From positions 1 to 64,000 of the forward strand of contig JAPPOV010000045.1 in assembly GCA_028873595.1 (NCBI GenBank): a stretch of DNA of 64,000 nucleotides, written 5' to 3'. The notes below the pieces were generated by a model. The model worked only from the letters and a program-made list of their open reading frames with translations, was not told where the DNA came from and did not search any database. The DNA is from Gemmatimonadota bacterium (GTDB taxonomy: Bacteria > Gemmatimonadota > Gemmatimonadetes > Longimicrobiales > Gaopeijiaceae). Numbering within the stretch: the first letter of the stretch is position 1; each line of letters starts with the position of its first letter. The position numbers and the translations under genes were made by a program. Shown here piece after piece: positions 53,689 through 63,818 of this stretch.

Positions 53689-54887
53689 TCGGGGACACCG
53701 GCTCCGATCCGAGAGTCAACCAGAGCGCGGAATATCGGAGCAACGGCTAGCGGCTCATGGGCCGCCGCCGCCCGCCGCGTGGCCGTGGCCTGTTCTCTGT
53801 ATTCCTCAGGGTCGTACTCGTCGTAGGTGCGAACGAGTCCGGACACCAGGGCGTCAAGGGAAGGGAAGACCTCGCCAGTGCCAGGGAAGGCCCGAAGCCG
53901 CTCGGTGATGTATCCACTCTCCAGCTGTAGCGAAGGTTTTGAGAAGGAGAAGGTGTCGTGGAGTGCGCTGCTTGGGCAGAAGTCGTATTTGGCGTCCCCG
54001 TTCAGCCCGAAAACGTAGGTTGCCCGCCCCAGTTGCTTGGCGAAGTCGGCATCCGAGAGTGGCTCGGCGGGCAACTCTCCCAATAATCCACCGATCGAGC
54101 GAGTGACCTCGGGATGCGCATATCCCACGTACTCGAACCGACACCGAGCGTCGGGCCGCGCCCGGAAGAAGCCGCGCGCTACCTCTGCGGCCTCCGGTAG
54201 ACGCGCCCCCCCCCCGCCCACGACGGCCAAGACCATTGAGTCCCGATTTTTCGGCACGACGGGCGCCGTCGGTAGGAGCTCGTCCGGCCAGGACCAGGGA
54301 ACAGGAAGGGTGTCGAAGTGGGGGGCGATCCGCGGATCCACCGACCTTAGCGCTTCGGCAATGGATGGCCCAAGCGCGAGGAAGCGGAGCGCCTGGGGCT
54401 GTGGCCACCGAAGAGTGGCTCCCGGGGAGAGGATCCGTCGTGGGAGGCTGGTCTCATGAACCGCAACCTTGGCTAGGATGGCGTGGATGATTCCCCAGGT
54501 CGGGGTACGGTTGGAGCTCATGAGGAGCCGAAGCTTCGTGATGGCGAGTCCAAGCTGGGAGAATCCGCAGATCAGCCCCAACTGACTCTCATACAACTCC
54601 TCGCGGAAGCGCCGGGTCCACGCTAGTTCGCCGGCGATCCTCAGTGGCCCCTCGCGTTGGTCGTAACGCGGGATCTCGATCGGTTCCCCTTCAATCCCAA
54701 GCTCCTTATCGAGGCTGCCGAGGACAAAGTCGAGATGAGAGGGGTCTGCAAGAAACCGGAGCTTTGCCCGCGGGAAGGCGGCCGAAAGCATCTGTAGAAG
54801 GGCAGTATTCAGCTTGGCATGAGCGTAACCTTCGACGACCGGCTCGATGGCGACAATGCGGCGGATCTCTGCGGCCGGCCGGCTCAC
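53685..54887 (-). CDS. Unrecognised protein, possible glycosyltransferase, with a ten-base poly-G run
   Basis: I do not recognise a family with certainty. The 400-aa soluble product has a layout like a GT-B enzyme: an N-terminal half (RRIVAIEPVVEGYAHAKLNT, LIVCGFSQ-like segment), a linker and a C-terminal half (YVFGLNGDAKYDFCPSSALH, KPSLQLESGYITERLRAF). A Gly-rich stretch VLAVVGGGGARLPE is encoded by ten consecutive G on the coding strand (54206-54215), a likely slippage site. It is coupled by overlap to both neighbours, a GT4 and a flippase, so a role in making the same glycan is inferred. Confidence 0.7.
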   Translation of the reverse strand: MSRPAAEIRRIVAIEPVVEGYAHAKLNTALLQMLSAAFPRAKLRFLADPSHLDFVLGSLDKELGIEGEPIEIPRYDQREGPLRIAGELAWTRRFREELYESQLGLICGFSQLGLAITKLRLLMSSNRTPTWGIIHAILAKVAVHETSLPRRILSPGATLRWPQPQALRFLALGPSIAEALRSVDPRIAPHFDTLPVPWSWPDELLPTAPVVPKNRDSMVLAVVGGGGARLPEAAEVARGFFRARPDARCRFEYVGYAHPEVTRSIGGLLGELPAEPLSDADFAKQLGRATYVFGLNGDAKYDFCPSSALHDTFSFSKPSLQLESGYITERLRAFPGTGEVFPSLDALVSGLVRTYDEYDPEEYREQATATRRAAAAHEPLAVAPIFRALVDSRIGAGVPE

Positions 54888-56038
54888 GGACGTGGCTCAC
54901 TTCTTCCGTCGTCACCGGTGAGTGCAGTGTCCACGTGCTCCTGGATCATCGCAAAGACGGCTGGCCAGTCGGGCATGGCGGACACTATATCTCTTCCCGT
55001 CGCCACACGCTCCCTCAACAGCTCCGGAGCCCGCCCCATCCCCTCCATCTTGTCGTGGATCGCCACCGGATCGAGCGGATCGACGTACCACGCGGCTTCC
55101 CCACACACGTCATGTGCGAATGGGAGGTCAGAGGTGAGGATCGGACATCCATGATACATGGCCTCCACATACACGCCGGAGAAGCTCTCCAGGAGGGTCG
55201 GCATCACGATGCCATCACAACGCTGGATGAGGGAAGGCACGTCTGCATGGGACACCGGACCGAGGTTCACGATCTCCTTTCCCAGACCCTCTCTCTGGAT
55301 ACGCTCAAGAAGTGCTGCCGCAGCCGGGTCCTGATCGGCGGCGATCGTCAGCAAGATCGTGGTTCCGGAATTCCTCGCCCGGGCAAGGGCCGCGACATCC
55401 ACAAGCACCTCAAGGTTCTTGTGGGCGTAGTAGTGACTCAGACAAAGAAACAATCTCCGACCTTCAGGGAGGGGAAACGACAACTCGGCGCGAGTCGAGG
55501 TGCTCTCGAACGAGACTGCGTTGGGGACTACCTTCACCGTCCGGATACCGTAGAGATCCTGGAGTCGCCGACCGATCCGCGCGGTTTGAGCCATCGTGAG
55601 ATCTACGTGTTTTACAAAGCGTCGATAGGCGCTGAGCTTGATTCGGCGTGCCAACCGATCCTTGCGTCTCATCCGTCTCCATGCCGGACTCTCTGGCTCC
55701 GCGGCATACGGCCAGTCGAAGAGTTGGACCTGGGGAAGTTCCGTAGGGATCGGAACGTCCCCGAAGTTGAGAACTCCCTCAATACGGTGAGCCTTCAGAA
55801 GACGCGGAAGGGCCCAGAAATACAGGAACAGGAAGGCGGCATTCCGGCCGTAGAAAGCCGGGACCTGAAGAATTTCAAGCCCCGGGCGGCCGTAGTTCAG
55901 GTACTCATCTCGGTCGGGTGTCAGGACGAAATATTCATGGACCCTTCGTGAGCCCGCGAGGAGACGCAGGTAGTTATGCAGTATGCTGCGTCCACCCCCG
56001 GTCTTCGCCTGCAGGCCATTGATCAGAACTCGACTCAT
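54884..56038 (-). CDS. Glycosyltransferase family 4
   Basis: The 384-aa product starts MSRVLINGLQAKTGGGRSIL and carries RRLFLCLSHYYAHKNLEVLV and the EX7E motif in TLLESFSGVYVEAMYHGCPI. It is a retaining GT-B enzyme of unknown sugar. It is first in the - strand run that continues through 48656. A broken relative of its N-terminus lies upstream at 56224-56370. Confidence 0.9.
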   Translation of the reverse strand: MSRVLINGLQAKTGGGRSILHNYLRLLAGSRRVHEYFVLTPDRDEYLNYGRPGLEILQVPAFYGRNAAFLFLYFWALPRLLKAHRIEGVLNFGDVPIPTELPQVQLFDWPYAAEPESPAWRRMRRKDRLARRIKLSAYRRFVKHVDLTMAQTARIGRRLQDLYGIRTVKVVPNAVSFESTSTRAELSFPLPEGRRLFLCLSHYYAHKNLEVLVDVAALARARNSGTTILLTIAADQDPAAAALLERIQREGLGKEIVNLGPVSHADVPSLIQRCDGIVMPTLLESFSGVYVEAMYHGCPILTSDLPFAHDVCGEAAWYVDPLDPVAIHDKMEGMGRAPELLRERVATGRDIVSAMPDWPAVFAMIQEHVDTALTGDDGRSEPRP

Positions 56039-56114
56039 GCTCAGCTTGGGTTAGTGGGGGCGCCTTTGGAAAGCGCTGGTGCTCACGTGACGTGCCCCCA
56101 GGTGCTTTACGACC

Positions 56115-56146
56115 GCCTAGGGAGCGGGCGGTGGTCCGCCCTAGGC
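56115..56146 (-). repeat. Inverted repeat at the transposase remnant
   Basis: GCCTAGGG (56115-56122) and CCCTAGGC (56139-56146) form an 8-bp inverted repeat; inside it GGGCGG-TGGT-CCGCCC makes a second possible hairpin. It overlaps the end of the transposase fragment. It could be a terminator-like structure or chance GC-richness. Confidence 0.4.
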
Positions 56147-56198
56147 GCTGTGCGGTCTGACGGTATTGTACAGCCTTCTCCACCGCTCCAGGAAGAGA
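56117..56198 (-). mobile_element. IS3-family transposase, C-terminal fragment
   Basis: On the - strand this reads LFLERWRRLYNTVRPHSA, then TAG, then GGPPPAP and TAG. The YNTVRPHSA-x-GxPPPAP end is the hallmark of IS3-family OrfB transposases. The internal TAG stands where Leu or Tyr is expected (HSALGYRPPAP in relatives), so the fragment is dead. The matching 5' part is at 60080-60293 in the same orientation. Confidence 0.7.
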
Positions 56199-56223
56199 AC
56201 GGTCCCGGGAAGGAGGCCGCCGT

Positions 56224-56370
56224 CGCAAATGCCGCACAGCTATCGTCGGGGACGATCAAGCGGAAGCGATGCCCCGACCCCTTGGCGAGAGGGAGCGCCA
56301 GCCAGTTGGTCAGGATGCTACAGCCACTACCAGATTTACTGCTGATGTCGTCGACGAGGACGTGCCCCAC
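56224..56370 (-). pseudogene. N-terminal remnant of a GT4 glycosyltransferase
   Basis: From GTG 56370 the - strand encodes VLVDDISSKSGSGCSILTNW and then RFRLIVPDD, about 49 aa. This aligns with VLINGLQAKTGGGRSILHNY and EYFVLTPDR at the start of the intact GT4 at 56038. After residue 49 similarity stops and transposase-like sequence begins. It is a truncated relative, cut by the IS fragment. It directly abuts the stop of the cassette glycosyltransferase. Confidence 0.55.
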
Positions 56371-57411
56371 TCATCCCTCACCGTCCGCCAGCGCTATCCG
56401 AAACCCATCGACCATATTCTCGACGGACGCGCGCTCGCGGTAATGGGTGTAGGCGTTGCTCCCCATGGTGCGCGCCGCGGCATCGTCGGTCGCCAGATAC
56501 AGCATCGCCTCCTCGAGGGCGGCGCTGTCGTCTTCGCAGAAGATGCCGTTGTAGCCGTCGATGATGTTGTATTTTTCGCCACCCGAAATTGCCGACTTCT
56601 TGGTGACGAAGGGCACACCGAACGCCATGCTCTGCAAGACCGCGAGGCCGGCCTGGCCGAACGACACCGACGCTATCGCGCGCGCGTAATACTCTTCGAG
56701 CACCGCGGGATCCTCGATCTTGCCCGGCAGGAACACACGATCGTCGAGCCCGAGGTCGCGCACCAGCTGGGTGAGCATCGCGCGATCGCGTCCCTCACCG
56801 ATCAGATACAGCGAAAGGTCGCAGCCGGTTTTGTCGAGGACGTTCTTGAAGGCCCTGATCGTCACGTCGTTCTGCTTGCGCGGATCGAGGGTACCGACAT
56901 TGAGGAAGATGTCCTTCGGTCGTGACTCGTGGAAAGACCGGTGGTTCTCCACGTGAAAGGTATTGTTGGCGACATGAAGCCGGTCGGGATCGAGCCCCTG
57001 CTCAACGAAAAAGTCACGGATTCGGTGGTGGTAGAAGACGATCGGCGCCTTCCCGTGCGCGAGCCACGTCTTGATTCGCAGCGCCGCGTCGCTCGCTCCC
57101 TTATCGAGACCCCACCAGACCCAGCGCACGCGCGACCCGAGCCGAGCCTTGGCCGCAAAGGACATGAGGTTGCGCAGGTTGAACTCGGCGATGATGGTGG
57201 TCGGCCGGTGCTGGCGGATGACGTCCATCAGCCCCCGCTGCAGCAGGAACGGCCCGACCTTCCGCATCGGGACGAGCACCTCGGCGAAGCGGTCGCCCGG
57301 CTCGCCGGCGCGCTCACCCGAGTGCACGACGATCACGTCATCGACCTCGCTGAGCTTGTCGAAAAAGCCCCGGCGATAGTGCGGGAACTGGCCTTGGATG
57401 ACGAGGATTAT
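56371..57411 (-). CDS. Glycosyltransferase family 4, apparent ATA start
   Basis: The C-terminal GT-B half is clear: FLNVGTLDPRKQNDVTIRAF, YLIGEGRDRAML and SFGQAGLAVLQSMAFGVPFV (Gln in place of the first EX7E Glu, as in some subgroups). The obvious frame starts at GTG 57336. Homology-like sequence continues upstream, IILVIQGQFPHYRRGFFDKL, to codon ATA at 57409-57411, with GGAGGG 7 nt before it. No ATG, GTG or TTG is in that stretch. The natural start was probably ATG; either the codon mutated or ATA is used. 28 nt after the FkbM stop. Confidence 0.8.
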   Translation of the reverse strand: MILVIQGQFPHYRRGFFDKLSEVDDVIVVHSGERAGEPGDRFAEVLVPMRKVGPFLLQRGLMDVIRQHRPTTIIAEFNLRNLMSFAAKARLGSRVRWVWWGLDKGASDAALRIKTWLAHGKAPIVFYHHRIRDFFVEQGLDPDRLHVANNTFHVENHRSFHESRPKDIFLNVGTLDPRKQNDVTIRAFKNVLDKTGCDLSLYLIGEGRDRAMLTQLVRDLGLDDRVFLPGKIEDPAVLEEYYARAIASVSFGQAGLAVLQSMAFGVPFVTKKSAISGGEKYNIIDGYNGIFCEDDSAALEEAMLYLATDDAAARTMGSNAYTHYRERASVENMVDGFRIALADGEG

Positions 57412-57439
57412 GGAGTTGCCCTCCGCCTTCGAGCCCGGT

Positions 57440-58129
57440 TCAGGCGCGCCAGAAGAGATAGTTGTGGTTGTCCAGCGAGAAGGACTTGAAGCCCATTCCG
57501 ACGATGCGGTCGGCGATACGCTTCGTGTCGGCCTCGCTGTAGCTCACGACGGCGTGATGATGGAATTCGATGAAGATCTGGTCGAACGCGGCAAGATCCT
57601 CGGCGGTCGCGTCGCGCAGTAGCGGATACTCCGCGCCCTCGATATCGAGCTTGAGGATCGCCACGCGGTCGCTGTCGAGCTCCTTCACGAGGTTCTGCAA
57701 CGTCACCGCGCGGACGGTGTAGTTCACCACCTGGTCCGACGTGACGTTCGTGTGGTCATCCATCAGAGAGCCGCTGTCGTTCTTCTCGCTCTCGTGGAAG
57801 GTGAGCTCGCCATCGGTCGGGCCGATAGCGATCGGTAGATGGACGAGCTTGCCGCCGTGCTTTGCCTCGAGCGCCGCGAGCGCGGGGCGGTGCTTGCGCG
57901 TCGGATCGACGGCGTAGCTGCGCGCATCGTAGCGATCCATCATAGCCAGTGAAAAATCCGCCTGAGAGCTGCAGCCGGCGTCGATGACGGTGTCGCCGGC
58001 CTTGATGCGCGGCCAGTAGATGAAGTCGGGCGCGACATAGGCGATACCGGCGGTGCGCGCTTTGCGCAGGCGAAGTTGCTTGCGAATGTCGCGGACGATT
58101 CTACGGACGATACGGTGGATGATGGACAC
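57440..58129 (-). CDS. FkbM-family SAM-dependent methyltransferase
   Basis: From GTG 58129, with a GGAGAG site upstream, the product is 229 aa. It has the SAM motif GDTVIDAGCSSQADFSLAM, then VRAVTLQNLVKELDSDRVAI and the FkbM hallmark ILKLDIEGAEYPLLRDA. It probably O-methylates a sugar of the glycan. The open frame extends to 58201 over the asnB stop. Middle gene of the three-gene cassette. Confidence 0.88.
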   Translation of the reverse strand: MSIIHRIVRRIVRDIRKQLRLRKARTAGIAYVAPDFIYWPRIKAGDTVIDAGCSSQADFSLAMMDRYDARSYAVDPTRKHRPALAALEAKHGGKLVHLPIAIGPTDGELTFHESEKNDSGSLMDDHTNVTSDQVVNYTVRAVTLQNLVKELDSDRVAILKLDIEGAEYPLLRDATAEDLAAFDQIFIEFHHHAVVSYSEADTKRIADRIVGMGFKSFSLDNHNYLFWRA

Positions 58130-58145
58130 GGAATCTCTCCGATCG

Positions 58146-59999
58146 TTAAAGCTGCGGCGGACTGGGGATGGATTCTTCGGTGCGCTCGATGAAGATCTCA
58201 TTCCACAGGTGAACCTGGTACAGGCGGAAGAGGAAGCGCTCGTACTTCGAGCGCTTCGGCTCTTCGGACGTGACGAACGCGCGCATCCGATCCGAGAAGA
58301 TCGGCCAGTCGAGGATCGGCGAGCGGCGAAGGTCGGCGATCATCGATGCCTTGGTGGCGGGCCGGATGTCCGACGAAAAACCGACCTTGTCCCGCTCCAG
58401 CACGTCCCGGAACGGCTCGTAGGCCGCCGAGTTGCGCAACACGTACTTATCGATGGCGTCGTTCAGCTTCAGCTTGTCGTCATGGCGAAAGGCGAACTCG
58501 ACCAGCCGGTGATCCATGAACGGTGAGCGGTTCTCGACGCTGCTGCGCATGGCGACGATATCGCCATAGTAGAGCAGATTCTCGAGACCGAGATTGTGGT
58601 GCCAGATCAGATGGCGATTGAGCAGATTGGCGTGCGCCGGCACCGGCTTCGCCTCCATCCAGCGCGGCGTCGCATTGCCACGATAGTGCCGGAACAGCGG
58701 TTCGTAACCATAAACATAGCGCATGACCTTGCGCAGCGACGGCGGTAGATTATTGCGCAGGAACAGCAGAACCGATGAGACGAAGCCGAAATGCAGTTGA
58801 TCCTTGAAGGCCAGCCAGGCCTGGCGGAACTGGCCACGCATCAGATACCAGGGGATGACCAGCACGAAGTAATTCTTGTAGCCGGCGAGTAGCTCGTCGG
58901 CCCCCTGTCCGTCGAGCGCCACGCGAACGCCGTTCGCGCCGACCGACTCATAGAGATAGTCGACTGAAACGATGGCCGGCGAAGAGTGGCCGCGCCCTAG
59001 ATGCCGGACGAGGGCCGCCAGCCGCGCCTTGTATTCGCTTGGTTCTTGCTCTTGGTAGCGGACGTGGAGATCGAGGTTCAGGCGCTCGGCCACGGCCTCG
59101 GCGAACTCACGCTCGTCATGCGCGTCGCGCGAGGAGAAGGTGAAGGCCGGAATGGGCTTGTCGCCGCCGCTGTGCTGTCGCGCGTAGGCTGCGACCAGTG
59201 TACTGTCGACGCCACCCGACACCAGCAACCCGAACGGCACGTCCGAGCGGAGACGCAACCGCACCGCGTCGCTCAGGAGGTCGGAGAATGCAGCGAGCGT
59301 GTCCGGCGTCGTCCGCTCGATCTTGCCGACGGGATAGCGCCAATACGGCTTGCTCTCCCACGCTCCGTCGGTGCTGATGCGCAGATAATGCGCCTTCGGA
59401 AATTCCTGCACAGAGGCGAGGAAAGTGCGGCCGTCACCTTCATACGTGCCTTCCTTCAGGAACATCTGGATCAACTCGAAGTCGATGTCATTCGCAACGA
59501 GGCCGGCTAGTTCCTGGAATTCACTGGCGAAGAAGACGTCGTCACCTGCCTTCGACAAGAACAGCGGCTTCTGCCCGAAGCGATCGCGCGAGACGACGAG
59601 TTCGCGGCGCGCCGCGTCGTAGATGGCAAGCGCCCACATGCCGTTGAGGCGGGAGAAGCTCTCCACGCCCCATTCGGCGAAGGCATGAATCACCACCTCA
59701 GTGTCCGACTCGGTCTCAAAGCTGTGCCCGAGCGCGCGCAGTTCCTCGCGCAGCTCCTGATAGTTGAACACCTCGCCATTGTAGGTGAGCGACAGATCGC
59801 CGAATCGGAACGGCTGGTTGGACACCGCGTCGAGATCGAGGATCGTCAGGCGGGTATGGCCTAGGAAGCAGGCTTCCTGCGCGAAATAGCCCAGATTGTC
59901 AGGGCCGCGATGGCCCACCTTGGCGATCGCCGCGCGCAGCCGTCTCGCGGGCAGATGCGCGATACCGTTGTGATTGAAGGCGACGAATATTCCGCACAT
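58146..59999 (-). CDS. asnB: Asparagine-synthase-like glutamine amidotransferase
   Basis: The 617-aa product starts MCGIFVAFNHNG, so Cys2 is the glutaminase nucleophile after Met removal. The N-terminal GATase domain runs to about 200. The synthetase domain has the PP-loop LLVSGGVDSTLVAAYARQ, then LDGQGADELLAGYKNYF. In polysaccharide loci such enzymes usually amidate a uronic acid or similar sugar carboxyl rather than make asparagine; that is inferred. First gene of the cassette between the IS3 halves. Confidence 0.92.
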   Translation of the reverse strand: MCGIFVAFNHNGIAHLPARRLRAAIAKVGHRGPDNLGYFAQEACFLGHTRLTILDLDAVSNQPFRFGDLSLTYNGEVFNYQELREELRALGHSFETESDTEVVIHAFAEWGVESFSRLNGMWALAIYDAARRELVVSRDRFGQKPLFLSKAGDDVFFASEFQELAGLVANDIDFELIQMFLKEGTYEGDGRTFLASVQEFPKAHYLRISTDGAWESKPYWRYPVGKIERTTPDTLAAFSDLLSDAVRLRLRSDVPFGLLVSGGVDSTLVAAYARQHSGGDKPIPAFTFSSRDAHDEREFAEAVAERLNLDLHVRYQEQEPSEYKARLAALVRHLGRGHSSPAIVSVDYLYESVGANGVRVALDGQGADELLAGYKNYFVLVIPWYLMRGQFRQAWLAFKDQLHFGFVSSVLLFLRNNLPPSLRKVMRYVYGYEPLFRHYRGNATPRWMEAKPVPAHANLLNRHLIWHHNLGLENLLYYGDIVAMRSSVENRSPFMDHRLVEFAFRHDDKLKLNDAIDKYVLRNSAAYEPFRDVLERDKVGFSSDIRPATKASMIADLRRSPILDWPIFSDRMRAFVTSEEPKRSKYERFLFRLYQVHLWNEIFIERTEESIPSPPQL

Positions 60000-60079
60000 T
60001 TCTGTTTACCGAGGCTCCAGAGCGACTGGATTTGGGATTCAGATCTTTCGGGAACAATGAACACGCTGCTCGGGACAAT

Positions 60080-60293
60080 CTAGTCGTGGCGACCGAACCG
60101 GCTCGCGAGCCGCACCACGTCGCTTCGCAGAGCCCCCTCGTCGACGCACACCCTCCGACTCCGTCGCTGCGTCGTGTGGGGCTGAGTTTCCCCTCGCCGC
60201 TTCCTCCCGAATCAGCTTGTCGAGTGCCAGGTTTGCCACCGCTCGCTTCAGCCGGGCGTTCTCTCCAGGTACTTTGGCTGATGTGCGTAGCTC
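60080..60293 (-). mobile_element. IS3-family transposase, OrfA end and OrfB start
   Basis: On the - strand, 60293-60186 reads ELRTSAKVPGENARLKRAVA and NLALDKLIREEAARGN, the coiled-coil end of IS3 OrfA. The sequence then shifts frame and reads QRRSRRVCVDEGALRSDVVR and LASRFGRHD before TAG at 60080-60082, matching the start of OrfB where GRYGYRRI is expected. The catalytic DDE core is missing. The C-terminal OrfB end is at 56117-56198, on the other side of the three-gene cassette. Confidence 0.7.
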
Positions 60294-60294
60294 C

Positions 60295-61815
60295 CTAGAA
60301 ACCCATCGTAGGGTCGGCCGCACTAGGACGTTCAGGCTGGCCGACCGTCGGTCCCTCGGTGTCACGTTCCAAGTCAGAGCGCACGAGGAGACAGAGGATC
60401 GTCAGCAGCATCATTTCTTTATTGTTGGTGAGTACCGCCGCGAGAAGGATGAAAGCGAGAAAGCCCACCGCCCCCCCCTCCACAGTCAGACGGTGGAGTA
60501 AGCGGAGGTAGAAGAAGACACCGAGGGCTCCCGCCTTGAGGGCGATTTCAAAGACAGGGAGGTGGAATCGGAGGAACTCGTTCCGCGCCGCATCCTCAAG
60601 GGCATACCCGCCGGCTCCCGCCCAGGGCGAAAGGTAGCCATATAGATCGGGGATTCCAGCGCCCATTCCTCCTCCGAACAGGGCTGCCCCCGGGTGGGAG
60701 ACCCAGTATCCGACCAGCGTGACGGCCTCCCCGGTGAGGTTCCCCAGGCTGGACCGAGCGGAGGCGACGAAATGGAGGTCGACAATGGTCAACAGGCTCA
60801 AGACCTGCCGCAATTTGCTGGCGAGGAGGGAGCCCTCCGGGAGGGTGGCTTCGGCGGAATACACCAATCCTTGCACACCCACGGCGGCCAGGATCGCCAG
60901 GCCCGCGGCCCCGAGTAGCCACATCCATCTTCCCGAGATCAGCCACACTCCGGTCACCAGGAGAAGGGCAATTGTCTTGGCCCCCAGGAAGACGTCTCCG
61001 GTGAGAAGCAGGGCCAACATCACCACGGCTAGGGTCAGAGCCTGCGCTCGCGGGAGCAGTCCGCGAATCGCTGCGAAGGCCCCAAAAACCGAGAGCCAGC
61101 CGAAGGAACTCAGAGGGAGGAACGGATAACCCTCGGCATATTCGAAGCGTAGCCCGAGGACCAGTGATGCGGCCATGGTAACCACTCCTAAGGCCAGCCC
61201 TGCAGCCAGTATTCGCCGGCGCTCGTCGGGTGGTACGAGCATCACAAGAGGAAGATAGAGCACGAATGGGACGAAGACGGCGAGGTCCCGGTAGAGGTTG
61301 TCCAGGTAGACAGTACCGAGAATGACCCCGGCCAGCCCCAGAGCGAGGGAGTAGAGGAAGAACGCGCTTAGGAACCCGATGCCCTCGACACGCCAACGGT
61401 ACTTGCTTCGGACGTCCCAGGTGCTCAGGGCGACCGCGAGGAGTCCTGCGGTCGCCAGGGCGTTTACCGAGACACCTGCCAGGCGGAGGCCCCAGAAGTT
61501 GCCTGGTGCCAGGTCAGGGAGAACGAACGTCCAAGCACCCAGGGCAAGGAGGGTGAACGCGACGAAGTAGCTGATGGCCAGCCGAAGATTCACGATGCAG
61601 AGGATCAGAACGAAACCGTACTCTGCCAGCGCGATTCCCCGCTGGAGTGCTCCTCCCGTACCGTAGCCCAGCAGCTCCCCGGCGACGAAGACCGTAAGAA
61701 CTGTGATCGACACGCGACTGAACCGGGGCCGGCGCTCCTTCTCGTGGTCTGGGTCCGAGGACTGCTGCACGCGCACCGGGGTGGCGTCTTCTGGTGCCCG
61801 TAAAGCTGTCTCCAT
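60295..61815 (-). CDS. O-antigen polymerase/ligase-like membrane protein (second)
   Basis: The 506-aa protein has about 12 hydrophobic segments. After a hydrophilic start (residues 1-35) helices follow, with a larger loop near 330-420 (SLGNLTGEAVTLVGYWVSHP, GGGMGAGIPDLYGYLSPWA) and a short tail. This is the Wzy/WaaL layout, but sequence motifs are weak. Eight C in a row (60471-60478) fall in its coding region. It stops 2 nt before the IS3 OrfA fragment. Confidence 0.72.
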   Translation of the reverse strand: METALRAPEDATPVRVQQSSDPDHEKERRPRFSRVSITVLTVFVAGELLGYGTGGALQRGIALAEYGFVLILCIVNLRLAISYFVAFTLLALGAWTFVLPDLAPGNFWGLRLAGVSVNALATAGLLAVALSTWDVRSKYRWRVEGIGFLSAFFLYSLALGLAGVILGTVYLDNLYRDLAVFVPFVLYLPLVMLVPPDERRRILAAGLALGVVTMAASLVLGLRFEYAEGYPFLPLSSFGWLSVFGAFAAIRGLLPRAQALTLAVVMLALLLTGDVFLGAKTIALLLVTGVWLISGRWMWLLGAAGLAILAAVGVQGLVYSAEATLPEGSLLASKLRQVLSLLTIVDLHFVASARSSLGNLTGEAVTLVGYWVSHPGAALFGGGMGAGIPDLYGYLSPWAGAGGYALEDAARNEFLRFHLPVFEIALKAGALGVFFYLRLLHRLTVEGGAVGFLAFILLAAVLTNNKEMMLLTILCLLVRSDLERDTEGPTVGQPERPSAADPTMGF

Positions 61816-62037: not shown

Positions 62038-63189
62038 ATGTCCTCCACATCATCGGCTTCGGAATACCAAATCTGCCAGAAGTGCGTCATGGACACCTCT
62101 GACGCCGCCATCACCTTCGATGAGGGCGGGCGCTGTGATCACTGCACCACCTTCTATACTCACACACTCCCACAATGGAGGACGGACGAGGAGGGGCGCA
62201 GACAGCTCGACGCCCAGGTTGCCGAGATTAAGAGGGAGGGTGTGGGGAAGGACTTCGACTGCATTATCGGGATGAGTGGGGGAATCGACAGTTCGTACCT
62301 AACCTATTTGGCAAGGGAGGAGCTGGGTCTCCGCCCGTTGGTTTTCCATGTGGATGCGGGATGGAACTCCCAGATCGCCGTCAACAACATCGAGAAGCTG
62401 ATCGACGGGCTGGGGCTGGAGCTTTACACCGAGGTCATTAACTGGGAGGAGATGAAGGATCTTCAGCTCGCCTTCTTCAAGTCTGGAGTTCCGCACATAG
62501 ACGTACCTCAGGATCATGCCTTCTTCGCGACCATGTACAAGTTCGCAGAGCAGTATGGCGTCAAACATATCCTTACTGGTGCGAATCTCTCGACGGAATG
62601 CGTTCGTAACCCGGTGGAGTGGATGTACTTCCAGTCGGACTCCCGTCAGCTTCGAGACATTCACCGGAAGTTCGGGAGCCGTCCTCTCAAGACGTACCCC
62701 GTCACCTCCATCCTTTGGCACAAGATCTGGCTTCCGTATGCCAAGGGGATCCGTGTGCTGCGCCCCCTGAACTTCATGCCCTACGTGAAGAAGGAGGCCA
62801 TGCAGCTGCTAGAGGACCGCTTCGGTTGGCAGCCGTACCCCCAGAAACACTTCGAATCACGGTTTACCCGGTTCTATGAGAGCTACTGGTTGCCGGAGCG
62901 GTTCGGGTACGACGTTCGTCGGGTCCAGTTCTCCAGCCTGATTCTGACAGAGCAGATGACCAGAGAGGAGGCCCTTCTCGAACTGGACGCTCTGCCCTAC
63001 GATCCGCACTCCATTCGTCACGAGACAGAATTCGTGGCCAACAAGCTCGGCATCTCCTACGACGAGTTGATGGCTTTCATGAAGCTTCCCCCCAAGAGCT
63101 TCCGGGATTTTAGGTCGCAGTGGTGGCTCTATCAGGTCGGATCCCGGACGATGAAGGCACTGGGTCTGGAGGTGGGGGGGAAGCGATGA
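62038..63189 (+). CDS. wbpG: N-acetyl sugar amidotransferase (WbpG/PseA-like)
   Basis: The 383-aa enzyme has a zinc-like N-terminus (CQKCVMDTSDAAITFDEGG then CDHC), the PP-loop CIIGMSGGIDSSYLTYLARE and KHILTGANLSTECVRNPVEW. WbpG works with HisH2 and HisF2 to turn an acetamido group into acetamidino, as on ManNAc3NAmA in Pseudomonas. Both partners follow directly: hisH2 overlaps by 4 nt. Confidence 0.92.
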   Translation: MSSTSSASEYQICQKCVMDTSDAAITFDEGGRCDHCTTFYTHTLPQWRTDEEGRRQLDAQVAEIKREGVGKDFDCIIGMSGGIDSSYLTYLAREELGLRPLVFHVDAGWNSQIAVNNIEKLIDGLGLELYTEVINWEEMKDLQLAFFKSGVPHIDVPQDHAFFATMYKFAEQYGVKHILTGANLSTECVRNPVEWMYFQSDSRQLRDIHRKFGSRPLKTYPVTSILWHKIWLPYAKGIRVLRPLNFMPYVKKEAMQLLEDRFGWQPYPQKHFESRFTRFYESYWLPERFGYDVRRVQFSSLILTEQMTREEALLELDALPYDPHSIRHETEFVANKLGISYDELMAFMKLPPKSFRDFRSQWWLYQVGSRTMKALGLEVGGKR

Positions 63190-63818
63190 TCGCCGTCGTC
63201 GACTATGGTCTTGGAAATGTCCAGGCATTTCTCCACATCTATAAGAAGCTCAACATTCCGGCCCGGACGGCCTCAGTTCCTTCCGACTTCGACCACTGTA
63301 CTGGGGTAATTCTCCCTGGAGTGGGAGCGTTCGACTGGGCCATGGCTCGTCTCAACGGGTCCGAGATGCGGCAATGCCTCGAGTCCCTGGTCGTCCACGA
63401 CGAGATTCCGGTGCTCGGTGTGTGTGTAGGGATGCAGATGCTCTTCGATGAGAGCGAGGAAGGCTCGCTCCCGGGACTCGGTTGGGTCGCCGGGCGGGTC
63501 CGCCAGTTTAAGGCTTCGGGACCTTTGGCCCTGCCTTACCCTCATATGGGGTGGAATGAGGCTGTACCGAAGAAGGAGGGGGGGCTGTTCCGAGGCATGG
63601 AGGGGTCGTCTCGCTTCTACTTCCTTCATTCCTACTACGTCGAGGCAAGCCGATCGTCGGACGTTCTCGCCGAGACGTCATACGGGATTGATTTTGCTTC
63701 CGCCGTGCAGGCGGGACACATCTTCGGAACCCAGTTCCACCCTGAGAAAAGCCACGACTGGGGGACCCGCCTCCTGAAAAATTTCGCTGAACTCCGATCG
63801 TGCTCCGTCCCCGAATAA
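63186..63818 (+). CDS. hisH: Glutamine amidotransferase subunit HisH2 (WbpG partner)
   Basis: The 210-aa product starts MIAVVDYGLGNVQAFLHIYK. Its class I glutaminase site has Cys in VLGVCVGMQMLF and His-Glu in GTQFHPEKS. It supplies ammonia to HisF2/WbpG rather than to histidine synthesis, judged by context. ATG 63186 overlaps wbpG (ATGA), and the end overlaps the start of hisF2. Confidence 0.92.
   Translation: MIAVVDYGLGNVQAFLHIYKKLNIPARTASVPSDFDHCTGVILPGVGAFDWAMARLNGSEMRQCLESLVVHDEIPVLGVCVGMQMLFDESEEGSLPGLGWVAGRVRQFKASGPLALPYPHMGWNEAVPKKEGGLFRGMEGSSRFYFLHSYYVEASRSSDVLAETSYGIDFASAVQAGHIFGTQFHPEKSHDWGTRLLKNFAELRSCSVPE

Follow-up and report, generated by a model that had tools for sequence, protein, structure and literature searches.

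Gene content of the locus

The window (the whole stretch of 64,000 nucleotides that was analysed) is part of an 82.9-kb contig from a metagenome-assembled genome of 3.23 Mb in 52 contigs. On its - strand, a cassette of three genes and the stub of a fourth lie between two fragments of an IS3-type insertion sequence (IS), in the order IS fragment, asnB, fkbM, GT4, fourth-gene stub, IS fragment. A preliminary description had given this order for 60293-56117 and had overlooked the stub between GT4 and the second IS fragment. The features of the region are listed below (all on the - strand; IS positions are those of the intact 1,268-bp copy described in the next section, L018).

60295-61815 (-): polymerase-like flanking gene, on one side of the IS/cassette region
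60185-60265 (-): IS positions 270-350, end of OrfA; 85-87.5% identical to intact or partial copies in G012, G101, G132 and G016
60081-60184 (-): IS positions 438-542, a frameshifted start of OrfB that follows an internal deletion of 87 bp
60000-60080 (-): non-IS leader upstream of asnB, 81 bp; IS homology stops at 60081
58146-59999 (-): asnB-type glutamine-dependent amidotransferase, 617 aa (PF00733, E 2e-53; PF13522; TIGR01536 above cutoff)
57440-58129 (-): FkbM-family methyltransferase, 229 aa (PF05050; TIGR01444 above cutoff)
56371-57411 (-): GT4 glycosyltransferase, 346 aa (PF00534, E 1e-19)
56228-56370 (-): 5' stub of a GT4-like gene, 47 codons, which opens with GTG immediately behind the GT4 stop
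56111-56212 (-): IS positions 1069-1170, OrfB C-terminus with YNTVRPHSA; 82% identical to L018, E 5e-24
56088-56110 (-): 3' end of the IS (from within 1237-1268), carrying an exact copy of the terminal inverted repeat TGACGTGCCCCC
54884-56038 (-): GT4 flanking gene, on the other side of the IS/cassette region

All three cassette genes are full open reading frames whose identities were confirmed by Pfam and NCBIfam, and AsnB has both the N-terminal MCGI and the SGGVDS motif. The cassette GT4 has ATA at its expected start (57409-57411, - strand), preceded by a GGAGG eight nucleotides upstream (GGAGG-N8-ATA). This codon reflects loss of the original start, use of a rare start or an error of assembly; initiation at the next in-frame start, a GTG at 57336, would cost the protein its first 25 residues. 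Because of the ATA at the start position, the cassette GT4 may be poorly expressed or even silent.

According to Pfam and NCBIfam, the neighbouring genes encode a Wzx-like flippase, a GT4 enzyme, a WbuX-type N-acetyl sugar amidotransferase, HisH and heparinase-like/lyase-like proteins, so that the surroundings make up a polysaccharide locus. The WbuX-type amidotransferase lies beside the HisH-type glutaminase at 62038-63818 (+ strand) as a second amidation system of the locus. The flanking protein encoded at 60295-61815 (-), polymerase- or ligase-like and 506 aa long, is without any Pfam or NCBIfam family. Amidotransferases of the AsnB type, methyltransferases of the FkbM family and GT4 enzymes are typical glycan-modifying enzymes, and the likely role of the cassette is to amidate and methylate a surface glycan and to extend or modify it. 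The cassette had been suggested to be a polysaccharide-modifying module; it does lie in a polysaccharide locus, but the role itself is plausible from domains only.

A foreign cassette between collinear halves of one IS type that lacks its core

When 98 relatives were searched with the whole region, both IS fragments were found together at one place, an intact IS3-type element of 1,268 bp in the same-genus genome G012 (L018:1512-2779, the same as G012:C37:175011-176278). Its OrfA (with HTH_Tnp_1) and OrfB (with HTH_21 and rve) lie in overlapping frames, and OrfB scores 231 bits against NF033516 (cutoff 160), which assigns the element to the IS3 family. The intact copy ends in TGACGTGCCCCC...GGGGGCACGTCA; these terminal repeat ends, set from four IS copies, are common to the copies in G012:C93 and G132 and slightly changed in G016. 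IS copies or relics are present in 18 of the 116 family genomes (own genome counted), which makes it a resident element of the family. Internally deleted relics are found in other family members (e.g. G057:C22, G101:C113 and G106:C224), and decay is thus a routine fate of this IS.

Both fragments in the window are collinear with the intact copy, without overlap and at 82-85% identity (BLASTN E-values of about 1e-20 and 1e-24 against L018). They are thus real halves of a broken IS3 transposase that point the same way, as had been proposed from the letters, and they join into one element. Upstream of the cassette, IS positions 270-350 are joined directly to 438-542 at 60185, with 351-437 gone (the 87-bp deletion); the 438-542 piece shares 72% identity with L018 over 105 bp and 81% over the last 63 bp. 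Downstream of it, positions 1069-1170 are followed by 1237-1268, with 1171-1236 gone (a 66-bp deletion). Positions 543-1068 are absent, which removes approximately OrfB residues 66-241 and with them the whole DDE domain (rve is at residues 122-216); the loss of the DDE core between the halves was therefore read correctly at the outset.

The ends of the element are preserved unequally. At 56088-56099, just beyond the interval first noted, the 3' inverted repeat survives without a mismatch, whereas positions 1-269 are absent together with the 5' inverted repeat, for which no match within 2 mismatches was found near 60265-60900. The flank of the 5' end is deleted too, which leaves the flank at 56087 without a counterpart in which a target-site duplication could show. 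A 12-mer that resembles an IS end with 2 mismatches (56358-56369) was put down to chance, 10.6 such matches being expected in the window. By OrfA/OrfB alignment, both fragments are of the same IS3 family type (NF033516) as the intact reference with its overlapping OrfA/OrfB and rve/DDE domain; unlike that reference, the window copy keeps only one of the two inverted repeats, is missing its 5' end and its catalytic core, has stops or frameshifts in both fragments and holds ~3.9 kb of foreign DNA. Since its 5' repeat is absent, the window IS copy is only a relic. No further copies of the IS were found in its own genome, where the fragments are unique.

With the 3' inverted repeat intact and the cargo standing in the position of the transposase, one could think of a mobile insertion cassette, or an IS with passenger genes, in which the ends are kept, cargo takes the place of the transposase and a transposase supplied in trans moves the unit. 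MIC231-type mobile insertion cassettes (cited in PMC2266710) likewise have an IS-derived end and non-transposase genes within; unlike those cassettes, the window has one inverted repeat and is not mobilizable. This reading fails because the IS 5' end is gone: the first 269 bp have been lost and the inverted repeat with them, the cargo is not bounded by both inverted repeats, and the present state of the region contradicts it. The genome has no second copy of the unit either, and we regard this origin as very improbable.

Codon usage and homologues of the cassette

The cassette differs from its neighbours in codon usage: CGC accounts for 0.63 of the Arg codons in the cassette vs 0.26 in the neighbours, and CCG for 0.71 vs 0.39 of the Pro codons. 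The leave-one-out codon score is positive in all three cassette genes and negative in all 27 neighbouring genes. Codon usage of a Sphingopyxis plasmid fits all three cassette genes better than that of the host, whereas the six neighbours tested all fit the host better; this suggests an alphaproteobacterium-like source.

Homologues were searched for in samples of same-phylum and other-phylum genomes, which do not represent the whole. There was no match to asnB at E<=1e-110 among 375 same-phylum genomes and none to fkbM at E<=1e-25 among 395, and fkbM was not found among 399 other-phylum genomes either. The best asnB relative found (51% identical) is in a gammaproteobacterial MAG and has a different gene neighbourhood; the DNA searched around it contains no credible fkbM or matching GT4, and its genome contains no fkbM match. 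Among the matches listed, all plasmid matches for fkbM and GT4 are below 30% identity, and no match to the cassette was found in viral contigs. The preliminary description had considered that the cassette genes might occur together in related genomes with no IS nearby; no three-gene donor was found in the genomes searched, and the collections searched gave no other instance of the asnB-fkbM-GT4 combination. As judged from its deviant codon usage and the lack of close homologues in the sampled relatives, the cassette is foreign.

A compositionally foreign cassette could also come from misassembly, if unrelated contigs of the metagenome-assembled genome had been joined at IS sequence, IS repeats being common joining points. 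Such an artefact, however, would need false joins twice over, each at a different internal position of the IS, and the IS fragments are unique in the genome and decayed, hence offer no repeat to collapse on; we consider it very improbable.

Junctions and origin of the arrangement

The left junction of the insert is at about 60080, where the leader of asnB begins. At the right junction, the stub breaks off against IS position 1069. It shares 33% identity over 42 aa (E 7e-6) with the N-terminus of the neighbouring GT4 (54884-56038); the tight spacing between the GT4 stop and the stub start suggests that it came from the same donor operon as the cassette. No inner IS end was found at the cassette edges (60080 or 56213), and no duplicated IS segment. 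Because a gene cut at an arbitrary codon meets an arbitrary internal IS position, the junctions look like illegitimate joining rather than transposition.

The explanation that we put slightly above an even chance is that one resident IS had its middle replaced by a piece of a foreign polysaccharide operon through illegitimate recombination and then decayed. A single copy of the IS3-type element would first have sat in the polysaccharide locus. A foreign, proteobacteria-like operon piece of ~3.9 kb (asnB-fkbM-GT4 and the start of the fourth gene) would then have replaced the middle of the IS by non-homologous recombination, removing IS positions 543-1068. Loss of the 5' end of the IS and of two short stretches inside it would have come later, and nothing is mobile now. 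We infer the single copy, the order of events and the illegitimate mechanism. Three points count against this explanation: neither an empty site nor a donor was found, the codon score of the stub is intermediate and host-leaning, and two decayed flanking copies would look similar.

This last point leads to a possible, clearly less probable origin, in which the cassette lay between two direct IS copies (as a composite, transposon-like unit, or as a segment acquired through homologous recombination between copies) that both decayed later, so that one is left with its 5' part and the other with its 3' part. Two non-overlapping partial IS pieces that flank cargo are compatible with one copy or two, and the similarity of the fragments to different IS copies does not clearly separate the two cases. 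Relatives hold several IS copies per genome, and related OrfB proteins (65-68%) are found on sphingomonad plasmids; sphingomonad codon usage fits the cassette better than that of the host. Against two copies, the retained pieces do not overlap and no inner IS end is left at 60080 or 56213, and for these reasons the account with a single interrupted IS is mildly favoured.

The locus comparison with related genomes showed no empty site, since orthologs of the two flanking genes are both lacking from the sampled relatives: the polymerase-like gene (60295-61815) has no match at E<=1e-20 among 116 genomes of its own family, and the flanking glycosyltransferase (54884-56038) none at E<=1e-40 among 26 relatives. 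Of the original proposal, the part that the cassette replaced or entered the middle of the IS holds, with the core replaced by the cassette, the IS resident and the cassette foreign; movement by recombination at an IS copy was not shown, as the searches yielded neither an empty site in relatives nor a donor, no segment of the IS turned up in duplicate, and the right end of the insert is a gene broken off at an arbitrary codon.

We found no described case of this arrangement in the literature. Like horizontally acquired modules of O-antigen and exopolysaccharide clusters, it places foreign glycan-modifying genes among Wzx-like, GT4, WbuX/HisH and lyase-like genes; unlike them, the module in the window lies exactly inside an IS relic. 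That IS3-type copies might serve as repeated landing sites in a trade of foreign polysaccharide modules between phyla, which in the window would have left a module in place of the transposase core, with asnB-fkbM-GT4 as a new tradable glycan-modification unit, seems to us a long shot. The arrangement is ordinary in kind, debris that horizontal transfer left in a variable polysaccharide locus. It is a clear case, datable in principle, of surface-glycan genes of foreign origin inside a decayed IS, and it shows how highly variable polysaccharide loci get patched together, though it brings nothing new in mechanism.
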